Below are positions 29,003 to 52,338 of a stretch of 52,338 bases of DNA, piece after piece. Source of the DNA: Janthinobacterium sp. GTDB lineage: Bacteria > Pseudomonadota > Gammaproteobacteria > Burkholderiales > Chitinibacteraceae. How positions within the stretch are numbered: the first letter of the stretch is position 1; every line of letters starts with the position of its first letter. The notes beneath the pieces were generated by a model. The model saw nothing but the letters and a program-made list of their open reading frames with translations, was not told the DNA's origin and searched no databases. Position numbers and translations under genes: made by a program. Where the stretch lies: assembly GCA_025360045.1 (NCBI GenBank), contig JANYCY010000063.1, forward strand, positions 1-52,338, in the 5' to 3' direction.

Positions 29003-29743
29003 ATGGATAAAATTAGTATTTTTGGGATTTTACTTGGCTTAACAGCCGTTGTTCTCGGGCAAATTTTAGAGGGCGGCCATGTTGCATCGCTAATGCAAGC
29101 CACGGCATTTTTAATTGTCACAGGTGGCACTCTAGGTGCTGTGATGCTGCAAAGTCGGCAAGATCATTTTATTGCAGGTTTAAAAATGGTGAAGTGGATT
29201 TTTATTCCTCCACAACACGATTTCAAAAAGCAACTGGGTGTTTTAGTCAACTGGGGCCAACAAGCCCGTCGCGGCGGCCTTTTAGCGCTCGAAGCCTATG
29301 TACAAAGTGAAAAAGATCCTTTCGTAAAGCGTGGTCTACAAATGGTAGTCGATGGGGCCGAGCCGGAAGTCATCCGCCGCGCCATGGAGCTAGATATCGA
29401 TGTCTTTGAAGATCGCGCTCGCTCAGCAGCCAAAATTTGGGAAGCAGCCGGCGGCTACTCGCCCACCATCGGCATTATTGGCGCGGTGATGGGCCTGATT
29501 CATGTGATGGAAAACCTCACCGATCCATCTAAGCTAGGCGCAGGGATTGCGGTAGCCTTCGTCGCCACCATCTACGGCGTAGCCATGGCCAACCTCTTAT
29601 TTCTACCGATTGCACAAAAACTAAAACAACATATCCAAACCGAAGTAAGACGCCGTGAAATGCTCGTAGAAGGCCTAGTCACCATCGCCAACGGCGAAAA
29701 TCCACGAGTGTTAGAAAACAAACTGGCGGGTTTTTTGTCTTAG
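29003..29743 (+). CDS. motC: Flagellar stator protein MotC (MotA family)
   Basis: A 246-residue MotA/TolQ/ExbB-type proton-channel subunit. Four helices, with the conserved segment AGGYSPTIGIIGAVMGLIHVMENL and GAGIAVAFVATIYGVAMANLLFLP; charged cytoplasmic loop with RRGGLLALE for FliG contact. It resembles the MotC group that pairs with MotD. No motD follows; a 653-base repeat field does. Confidence 0.9.
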   Translation: MDKISIFGILLGLTAVVLGQILEGGHVASLMQATAFLIVTGGTLGAVMLQSRQDHFIAGLKMVKWIFIPPQHDFKKQLGVLVNWGQQARRGGLLALEAYVQSEKDPFVKRGLQMVVDGAEPEVIRRAMELDIDVFEDRARSAAKIWEAAGGYSPTIGIIGAVMGLIHVMENLTDPSKLGAGIAVAFVATIYGVAMANLLFLPIAQKLKQHIQTEVRRREMLVEGLVTIANGENPRVLENKLAGFLS

Positions 29744-29768
29744 TCGCTGATGTCAGTTAGCAACACCC

Positions 29769-29819
29769 AAACCTTGAACCACGGAGGGAGGGAGAACACG
29801 GAGTTTCACGGAGAAAACC
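29769..29819 (+). repeat. Copy of the CACAGAG-type dispersed repeat
   Basis: CCTTGAACCACGGAG ... AACACGGAGTTTCACGGAG ... AAAACC, the same unit as the arms at 2686-2794. Single arm only. Confidence 0.65.
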
Positions 29820-29943
29820 ATTTAAAACTGAGCCATTTATTGGGGTTTGAGTCATTACAACCTTAGCAAAATGAATTTATATCGCGACTCCCAGCACGGG
29901 GCTTAAATCCCCCTTGAAGCCGCGACACAAGGAATAAGCAGAC

Positions 29944-30329
29944 CGGGGTTTCGGAAAAGGGGTAGCGGGCTTGCTCCCGAGCAGCCTCTACGCCGAGCCG
30001 ATTATCCGCAGTGAGGGGCCTTCGTGCTTTTGGGGTTGCGGCTTGGCTCCGTTTCTTGTCCATTCAAGAAAGGAAGGCCCCCGCGGTGCATAAGTATCTA
30101 CACAAGTCAGCACACTTGTTCCCCCCTTTGTAAAAGGGGGGCTAGGGGGGATTTGTTTTGATGTTGGGCTGAAATTAGCCAAAAACCAAAGGCAAATCCC
30201 CCTCAGCCCCCTTTGACAAAGGGGGTGGCTGCAGCACTGAAGTGCTGCTATCAACTTATGTAGATACCTATGCCCGCGGTGGCACCCGCTCCAAAATCAA
30301 CGTGCCGAAGGCACTAAAAAGAGCTTTTT
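29944..30329. repeat. GC-rich dispersed repeat, copy 1, interrupted
   Basis: Begins CGGGGTTTCGG, includes CCGCAGTG, GGGGCCTTCGTG, TTCAAGAAAGGAAGGCCCC, then CCAAAATCAACGTGCCG and the hairpin GTGCCGAAGGCAC. A second copy in opposite orientation is at 52143-52338. Copy 1 is split at 30088 by a 184-base element. Small frames read across it are not genes. Confidence 0.8.
30089..30272. mobile_element. 184-bp palindromic miniature element (MITE-like)
   Basis: Ends CATAAGTATCTACACAAGT (30089-30107) and, inverted, CATAGGTATCTACATAAGT (30272-30254): 17 of 19 match. It is flanked by CCCGCGGTG on both sides (30080-30088 and 30273-30281), while the uninterrupted copy at 52143-52338 has this 9-mer once. 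The interior is a long imperfect inverted repeat (about 30120-30155 against 30191-30228, C5TTTG / CAAAG5). No coding capacity, so it would need transposase in trans. Confidence 0.85.
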
Positions 30330-30396
30330 AGCTTTACTTAGTACGTATAAAGTTGCCCCCCAACCTCATTCGCAATCGCCCTGCGGAGATTTCACC

Positions 30397-31143
30397 ATGC
30401 TCTGGTTTGCCAAATGGCTACGCCTTATCATTGCCTGGCTCGATCTCTGTGCTTTTACCCTGCTGATGCTGATCCTTGCACGCCTGCCTATGGCGCTCAT
30501 CTCTGGCTGCTATCCCCCATTATTTCAAGCTTGGTGCCGCTGTTTTGTTCGGGCGCTAGGCGTAGAGCTACGCTTACATCAACACTACAAAACATCCCTC
30601 CCTCCCCAATATATTCTGATTGCAAATCACCCCTCTGCTTTTGAAGATGTCGGCATACCTGCTTTTTTTCCCGTCAGAAACTTAGCCAAGGAAGAAGTAC
30701 GCAACTGGTGGTTTGTTGGACGAATTGCTGAAGCGGCAGGTACGCTCTTTGTAAGGCGTGAGCAAAAAGACGCGAGACAAGCTGCACTACAAAATATGAT
30801 TTGCGCGGTTAAAGCAGGCCACTCGATTGCCCTCTATCCAGAAGGAGGCTGCAAAGGCCGCCGCCTGTGGGATAAGTTTTTATATGGCGCATTTACTGTT
30901 TCACTGGAAACAGGCGTGCCCATCTTGCCGGTGTTTTTACATTATGAGGCGCAAGCAGCCTTTGAATGGGGCCCCAATACCACACTCCTACAAAAACTAT
31001 GGCAAATCATTTGCGCCCCCAATAAAGTGGCTCACTATCATGTATTTGATCCGCTAGAAGCCAGCCAATTTAAAGACCGTGATGATTACTCTCGCCATAC
31101 TTACGCACTTTATTTGGAATGGCAAAAACGTTTTCTTGAGTAA
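30397..31143 (+). CDS. Lysophospholipid acyltransferase family protein
   Basis: A 248-residue PlsC-fold acyltransferase, probably adding an acyl chain to lysophosphatidic acid or another glycerolipid at the inner membrane. An N-terminal hydrophobic helix (about residues 8-38) is followed by motif I NHPSAFEDV, FVRREQKDARQAAL and motif III YPEGG, with VPILPVFL as motif IV. Motif I has glutamate (then D) where HX4D would place aspartate. Stands alone between the repeat field and ftsK. Confidence 0.85.
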   Translation: MLWFAKWLRLIIAWLDLCAFTLLMLILARLPMALISGCYPPLFQAWCRCFVRALGVELRLHQHYKTSLPPQYILIANHPSAFEDVGIPAFFPVRNLAKEEVRNWWFVGRIAEAAGTLFVRREQKDARQAALQNMICAVKAGHSIALYPEGGCKGRRLWDKFLYGAFTVSLETGVPILPVFLHYEAQAAFEWGPNTTLLQKLWQIICAPNKVAHYHVFDPLEASQFKDRDDYSRHTYALYLEWQKRFLE

Positions 31144-52070: not shown

Positions 52071-52132
52071 GTGGGGCGGGTGAAGCCCGCGTATTTTTCA
52101 GCATCGCTAGCTGGCTTCACCCCATATGCGTT
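52071..52132. repeat. Degenerate REP pair of the second type
   Basis: GTGGGGCGGGTGAAGCCCG at 52071-52089 and GGCTTCACCCC near 52112, facing each other as in 37832-37890. Confidence 0.55.
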
Positions 52133-52142
52133 AAGCAAAATC

Positions 52143-52338
52143 AAAAAGACCTTTTTAGTGCCTTCGGCACGTTGATTTTGGAGCGGTAGCCACCGCGGGG
52201 GCCTTCCTTTCTTGAACGGCCAAGAAACGAAGCCAAAGAAGGCCGCCCCACGAAACACGAAGGCCCCTGCACTGCGGACAATCGAGTCGGCGGCAGGCGG
52301 GATTGGCTCGCTGCCTCGCTCCCTGGCCGAAACCCCGC
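52143..52338. repeat. GC-rich dispersed repeat, copy 2 (cut by window edge)
   Basis: Inverted relative to 29944-30329 and uninterrupted: GTGCCTTCGGCAC hairpin, GTTGATTTTGGAGCGG, GGGGCCTTCCTTTCTTGAA, CGAAGGCCCC, CCGAAACCCCG. It shows the empty site of the 184-base element. A small minus-strand frame across it is not a gene. Bases 51925-52070 hold nothing else supportable. Confidence 0.8.

Follow-up and report, generated by a model that had tools for sequence, protein, structure and literature searches.

A 184-bp MITE with IS4-Family-Type Ends and a Hairpin Core Common to a Second MITE System in an Iodobacter-like Genus

Results

The window analyzed here (the whole 52,338-nucleotide stretch of DNA) is contig 78 of a 4.02-Mb genome assembled in 97 contigs. 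Among named genomes, its FtsK has its best relative in Iodobacter sp., with 95% identity in the best segment. A short palindromic element, flanked by a MotA-like gene and an acyltransferase gene, sits inside one copy of a dispersed host repeat (Table 1). At the orthologous locus of that Iodobacter relative (L031), 93 bp separate the flanking alignments, versus 632 bp here, and neither the end motif of the element nor the two motifs of the host-repeat arms were found there. The host repeat and the element therefore arrived in this genome, and their nesting indicates that the repeat is the older of the two at this place. The host repeat is at least about 215–280 bp long (the two window copies and loci L171–L200) and at least 42 matches to it were found in the genome, with 40 of the 171 first-look candidates having been scored. 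All 30 host-repeat junctions parsed, in 28 of 36 loci, are empty, a set biased toward empty copies because the loci were drawn mainly with an empty copy as query.

Table 1. Features of the window and insertion sequences that carry both 19-bp ends
Feature	Location	Strand	Remarks
MotA-like gene	29003–29743
Host repeat copy split by the MITE	29944–30350	.	Extent alignable with the 52124–52338 copy
Target-site duplication, left copy	30080–30088	.	CCCGCGGTG
MITE	30089–30272	.	184 bp, type A ends, core-1 interior, without transposase gene
Left terminal inverted repeat	30089–30107	+	CATAAGTATCTACACAAGT
Core 1	30121–30225	.	One long hairpin made up of two CCCCCTTTNNNAAAGGGGG palindromes and their intervening arms; common to MITEs with other ends
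Right terminal inverted repeat	30254–30272	-	CATAGGTATCTACATAAGT
Target-site duplication, right copy	30273–30281	.	CCCGCGGTG
Acyltransferase gene	30397–31143
Host repeat, second copy	52124–52338	-	Empty, truncated by the contig end
Unoccupied target site	52191–52199	-	Single CCCGCGGTG
Insertion sequence	L158		1897 bp, interrupted; no clean 9-bp duplication
Insertion sequence	L159		1344 bp; no clean 9-bp duplication; transposase with stops
Insertion sequence	L160		1455 bp; no clean 9-bp duplication
Insertion sequence	L162		1356 bp; no clean 9-bp duplication; transposase with stops
Insertion sequence	L165, Citrobacter plasmid		1434 bp; exact 9-bp duplication CCCAAGATG
Insertion sequence	L168, Acinetobacter plasmid		1370 bp; exact 9-bp duplication CCTTAAAAG

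The first-pass annotation had described a 184-bp element with inverted ends matching at 17 of 19 positions and a 9-bp duplication, and all of these are present in the sequence, the duplication being exact. No open reading frame of at least 120 aa overlaps the element, which is a non-autonomous transposable element (MITE), as had been observed. The duplicated 9-mer matches three times in the window versus 0.35 expected, a number reached in 1 of 100 shuffles. When 29901–30400 was aligned with the reverse complement of the right edge of the window, the two host-repeat copies matched up to the 9-mer and resumed after it, and the large extra piece consists of the MITE plus one 9-mer. The sister repeat had been read as an empty site. 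It does hold the 9-mer singly, but as a copy of a dispersed repeat it is a paralogous rather than an orthologous empty site.

The long hairpin noted in the interior is borne out by folding. As RNA, the MITE strand gives −99.1 kcal/mol (z −9.9), and as DNA a z of −8.3, with 0 of 200 shuffles as good in each case. Rfam returned no family at gathering score, only sub-threshold miRNA and snoRNA hairpins. Among these, 30122–30226 resembles mir-3913 (47.6 bits, gathering score 100) and mir-766, probably through mere long-hairpin similarity.

Many further copies with the same ends were found, as the first-pass annotation had anticipated. In the own genome, a 202-bp query matched 70 times, with both strands of one palindromic place counted in some cases. 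The end motif at up to two mismatches occurs 38 times, dispersed over this genome (20 forward, 18 reverse; 0 and 0 in the reversed control), and at up to one mismatch 28 times; at the latter threshold it is present in 7 of 9 genomes of the genus. Two-ended copies were counted in the fetched loci at 70–420 bp with up to five mismatches per end; the own genome contributed 14 and other genus genomes 6. Among these 20 distinct copies, the 9-bp flanks agree exactly in 4, with up to one mismatch in 10 and with up to two in 14; the flanks of the remaining 6 have at least five mismatches. Cross-paired flanks agree at up to one mismatch in 2 of 182 pairings in the own genome and 0 of 30 in the other genus genomes, and both agreements come from L001 and L003, which share one target.

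The agreeing duplications show a palindromic target preference of about CCCTNAGGG, amounting to 3.24 bits summed versus a shuffled mean of 0.72 and maximum of 1.70 (2000 shuffles). This set comprises 19 duplications selected for agreement (up to two mismatches), from 16 MITEs, 2 insertion sequences and one 82-bp short form, and takes in both L001 and L003. The host repeat itself is an insertion hotspot, a feature which, like the occurrence of the core in MITEs with other ends, adds to the first-pass annotation. Thirteen of 67 distinct end junctions (own and genus loci), from 11 elements (8 own, 3 other), adjoin a host-repeat arm; in cases with a visible right arm, the distance to its GGAGCGG-like segment is 12–14 bases. 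It could be supposed that one MITE-bearing repeat copy was spread by recombination, as the MITE and its host are each a dispersed repeat whose copies may undergo gene conversion. We consider this quite unlikely. L001 and L003 occupy the same base of the host repeat in opposite orientations, each with its own complete duplications, and L114 and L144, which sit there with an offset of one base, have another interior, so that several hotspot insertions are independent.

A sister genome (G003) carries, inward of an end, decayed pieces of an IS4-type transposase, and the stop codon of the last piece lies inside the end. With a G003 piece as query, a transposase was found on a Methylotuvimicrobium plasmid whose stop codon also lies inside the same end. 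Relatives were present at E 1e-30 in 4 of the 369 genomes of the class and at E 1e-20 in 13 plasmid records. Six insertion sequences from these searches have both 19-bp ends (Table 1), and the L168 transposase, from Acinetobacter sp. ANC 7924, is intact with 409 aa. Three other plasmid copies (L156, L166, L167) show only one good end each by scan. The first-pass annotation had proposed a non-autonomous element with IS4-family-type ends and had looked to an insertion sequence in the same genome with the same ends and 9-bp duplications. Such insertion sequences exist, with exact duplications in 2 of 6, in other genera; the full-length transposase had no match at E 0.001 in the own genome or in 7 of its 8 sisters, G003 giving two remnant pieces. 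The MITEs may thus no longer move in the own genome, and, as the assembly is in 97 contigs, a multi-copy insertion sequence could be missing from it. The Acinetobacter element had no match in E. coli genomes. Short-word blastn of the MITE against the six elements and the G003 remnant placed all matches with E < 0.1 within the ends, and the interior has no clear similarity to the partner insertion sequences beyond them. In passing, the C-terminal part of NCBIfam NF011312 (flagellar biosynthesis regulator FlhF) matches L156, L165, L167 and L168 far below cut-off; this model may contain transposase sequence and could be a source of misnaming.

The placement of the ends in the IS4 family holds. 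The pattern originally given recalls the IS231 type, to whose signature the window ends conform at only 6/8 and 7/8 positions, whereas the IS50 signature fits better, at 7/7 positions in all 14 ends tested (2 in the window and 12 of the six insertion sequences). This signature, CW------Y---CA-A--W- in Table 1 of PMC2266710, allows A or T at base 2. Further marks of the IS50 subgroup are an 8–9 bp duplication, a size of 1350–1550 bp and a YREK motif with the spacing Y(2)R(3)E(6)K. In the transposases, Y307, R310, E314 and K321 are invariant in 5 of 5 aligned sequences. Four elements lie within the size range, L159 is just below it and L158 is interrupted. L165 and L168 have duplications of the expected length, which were not seen in L158, L159, L160 and L162.

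Whether the partner truly belongs to the IS50 subgroup is a dispute inside the main explanation. The text of PMC2266710 states that IS50 members systematically begin 5'-NT (CT extremity), while all 14 ends begin CA, and for this reason subgroup membership is left open. The short IS4Sa signature matches at 3/3 positions in 13 of the 14 ends, and PMC2266710 gives IS4Sa duplications of 8–10 bp. A transposase profile found the Tn5 transposase as its best solved structure (E 5e-4), but this does not tell subgroups apart, because six of the seven matches were Tn5 entries and the seventh was an unrelated protein. Searching the solved structures with a single protein gave no match. Neither of the Tn5-type Pfam domains, PF02281 and PF14706, turned up in the genus, which shows little, as PF02281 scored in no control genome either; PF14706 appeared only below cut-off, in 1 of 3 relatives. 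The full IS50 signature matches at 30 of 52,318 window positions versus 986 for IS4Sa, which makes the IS50 match the more telling. On this balance, the partner is of the IS4 family and IS50/Tn5-like in its ends; it probably is a true IS50 member, and an origin in another IS4 subgroup (IS4Sa or ISH8-like) seems unlikely.

The type A ends also enclose other interiors. In the genus, some surround an interior with GTAGGGTGGGTTAG-type inverted runs (L132, L114, L127, L144), an arrangement likewise observed in L112, L136 and L145. Exact end-motif matches occur in 6 of 369 genomes of the class, the own one included. The class loci returned contain 10 two-ended short elements with both flanks, 4 of them with exact 9-bp duplications and 6 with up to one mismatch, and core 1 is present in none of these 10. 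It is therefore the ends, not the interior, that these elements have in common.

The idea that the interior of A-type MITEs in other hosts is a palindrome abundant in the respective genome was checked on a small scale in stretches of G311, G292 and G346 and is not put forward. In G311 (8 stretches, 95 kb), 7 of 11 matches of the interior motif lie near an A end and 4 do not, and a second motif gave 6 matches versus 7 in its reversed control. G292 (111 kb) and G346 (112 kb) gave 0–2 matches per interior motif. In a separate observation, locus L141 of the sister genome G001 (by G001:C1:916083-916101) holds a further unit resembling a MITE, which has CAATCCTATCAACTTAAG-type inverted ends around a GTAGGGCGGGTTTCACCC interior and seems to be nested in an A/core-1 element.

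The hairpin core is shared with a second MITE system. Among the fetched own-genome loci there are 38 core clusters, not counting those within 60 bases of a locus end. An A end lies within 110 bp in 27 (one also with a B end), only a B end (TAATGCCGTTCACTTAAG) in 4, and neither in 7; of 4000 random 110-bp pieces, 29 contained an A end and none a B end. Among the 7, L014 (1467–1694) has core 1 between a third inverted pair, ATGTTCAGATTGGGTGTTGAT, matching at 20/21 positions. The B ends are those of an IS4-subgroup element, intact in G002 (L266, 1409 bp, exact 12-bp duplication), whose transposase has Nterm_IS4 (PF13006) and DDE domains and both of whose ends match the IS4 signature at 7/7 positions. 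All 9 two-ended short B elements seen contain a core-1 palindrome. Exact direct repeats of 11–13 bp flank 5 of the 9 (L249, L259, L263, L270, L272), and the other four have 1 to 4 mismatches, the best of lengths 9–14 being taken. The transposases of the two end types have hardly any similarity (29% over 49 residues, E 0.011).

Two further arrangements in the own genome may be recorded. A B-ended core-1 MITE is nested inside an A-ended core-1 element on contig 22 (L121/L018/L258), with a 12-bp direct repeat containing one mismatch. On contig 39, L227 (37805–38609) has a core-1 palindrome cluster without A or B ends beside an apparent tandem arrangement.

A tree was built from 28 distinct cores out of 96 loci scanned, many of which represented the same place; cores were excluded if they scored low or if their alignment covered fewer than 92 of the 105 bases, and L153, with one A and one B end, was labeled B. 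The A subtype of the window groups with the B cores (support 100/98), apart from 9 other A cores. The end labels need 4 changes on the tree versus a shuffled mean of 9.2; the well-supported branches force at least 2 for A and for B, and 17 of 25 inner branches are weak. These changes indicate that the core switched ends at least once.

On a wider scale, the search of 299 Pseudomonadota genomes for a 33-base core motif (up to three mismatches) found it in 16, among them the own genome, with 0 in the reversed control in all. The 27 loci from other genomes gave no inverted 14-mers accompanied by an exact direct repeat of at least 7 bp (L282 was not judgeable near a contig end), a rule so insensitive that it recovers only 3 of 30 own-genome core clusters. 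By a more sensitive search, A ends and B ends each occur in 0 of 26 judgeable loci from other genomes, versus 20 of 30 and 5 of 30 in the own genome; the suggestion that the CCCCCTTTG palindromes of other genomes are MITE interiors is thus unsupported. Inverted 14-mer pairs are present in the 110-bp flanks of 5 of these 26 loci (shuffled 0 of 26), compared with 9 of 30 in the own genome (shuffled 1), so other end types of the core are possible elsewhere. A plasmid search with the whole MITE returned only two Planktothrix matches, covering about 20% of the element and corresponding to its left palindrome. The core is older or wider than either end type described here, and its capture by MITEs in the Iodobacter-like genus would be the simplest reading.

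Discussion

In all likelihood, the MITE is served by an IS4-family transposase that recognizes these ends. We propose that such a transposase, with IS50/Tn5-type ends and supplied in trans, would bind the 19-bp ends, excise the MITE and join it to the target with a 9-bp stagger, and that gap filling would then create the 9-bp duplication. The target in this instance would have been the CCCGCGGTG site of the dispersed repeat between the MotA-like and acyltransferase genes. Cut-and-paste chemistry is presumed here by analogy with Tn5. It is plausible that this transposase group moved the present copy and that the partner has since been lost from the own genome or is unassembled in it.

The same observations may be viewed without transposition as the main cause. 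The hairpin could be an RNA or terminator signal retained by the host, the transposon ends being incidental, and its very stable fold, together with the core lacking A or B ends in other genomes, would suit such a role. We regard this as very improbable, since the same ends and duplications enclose different interiors and Rfam offers no family at gathering score. In addition, the two terminator-like sites in 29740–30400 lie outside the MITE and are no more than shuffles give. That palindromic core in other genomes would equally fit a REP-like palindrome that never transposed and acquired its flanking repeat by chance. The empty site, the duplications in half of the two-ended members and the insertion sequences with the same ends leave this with a negligible probability. 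Mobilization by an IS4-family transposase accordingly remains the preferred explanation of the element.

The sharing of the core raises a separate question. Exchange of the core by recombination would be its simplest reading. A more far-reaching proposal, which we put forward tentatively and hold to be somewhat less than an even chance, is that the hairpin, a widespread palindrome, is interchangeable cargo. Recombination within the G/C-run arms might swap it among unrelated end pairs (IS50-like with 9-bp duplications, IS4-like with 11–13-bp duplications, possibly a third type). A MITE would then consist of a chassis plus a hairpin, and the hairpin might be selected for helping any MITE, for example by ending transcription through the element or by bringing the ends together.

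Among known systems, the likeness to IS50/Tn5 lies in the end signature (7/7), the Y-2-R-3-E-6-K spacing, the 9-bp duplication in 2 of 6 relatives, the length of 1344–1455 bp in 5 of 6 two-ended relatives, and Tn5 as the best solved structure for the profile. The differences are the CA start, the lack of a Tn5-type Pfam domain above cut-off, and transposases so distant that a single sequence gives no match to Tn5. MITEAba12 of the ISAba12 system, as described in PMC6382973, is likewise a short gene-less element with 9-bp duplications and proposed mobilization in trans, has 16-bp imperfect ends, and resembles autonomous elements only in its ends. It differs in its GGCTTTGTTGCACAAA ends, its AT-rich interior, a co-resident partner and observed transposition. 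QMITE2 of Coxiella burnetii (150–190 bp, 7–11 nt direct repeats) also contains a repetitive extragenic palindrome according to PMC5896051 and PMC10969869. In that element the palindrome is of the GTAG type and is the IS1111 target, whereas here it is of the CCCCCTTTG type and common to a second MITE system. Within the same genus, the MITEs of the Iodobacter IS4-subgroup element L266 have the same core-1 interior, but that system differs in its ends, its 11–13-bp duplications and its Nterm_IS4 transposase. Mosaic non-autonomous elements are known from the Tn3-derived TIMEs (PMC4133298). A literature search of open-licence papers gave, among the matches listed, no title on the present MITE family.

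The MITE is ordinary in kind, and its modular interior is the interesting part. An orphan bacterial MITE family gains a partner group with testable ends and a target preference. The presence of one palindromic interior in two transposon systems of one genus provides a concrete case on the origin of MITE interiors and of dispersed palindromes, and it bears on whether the hairpin itself is selected.
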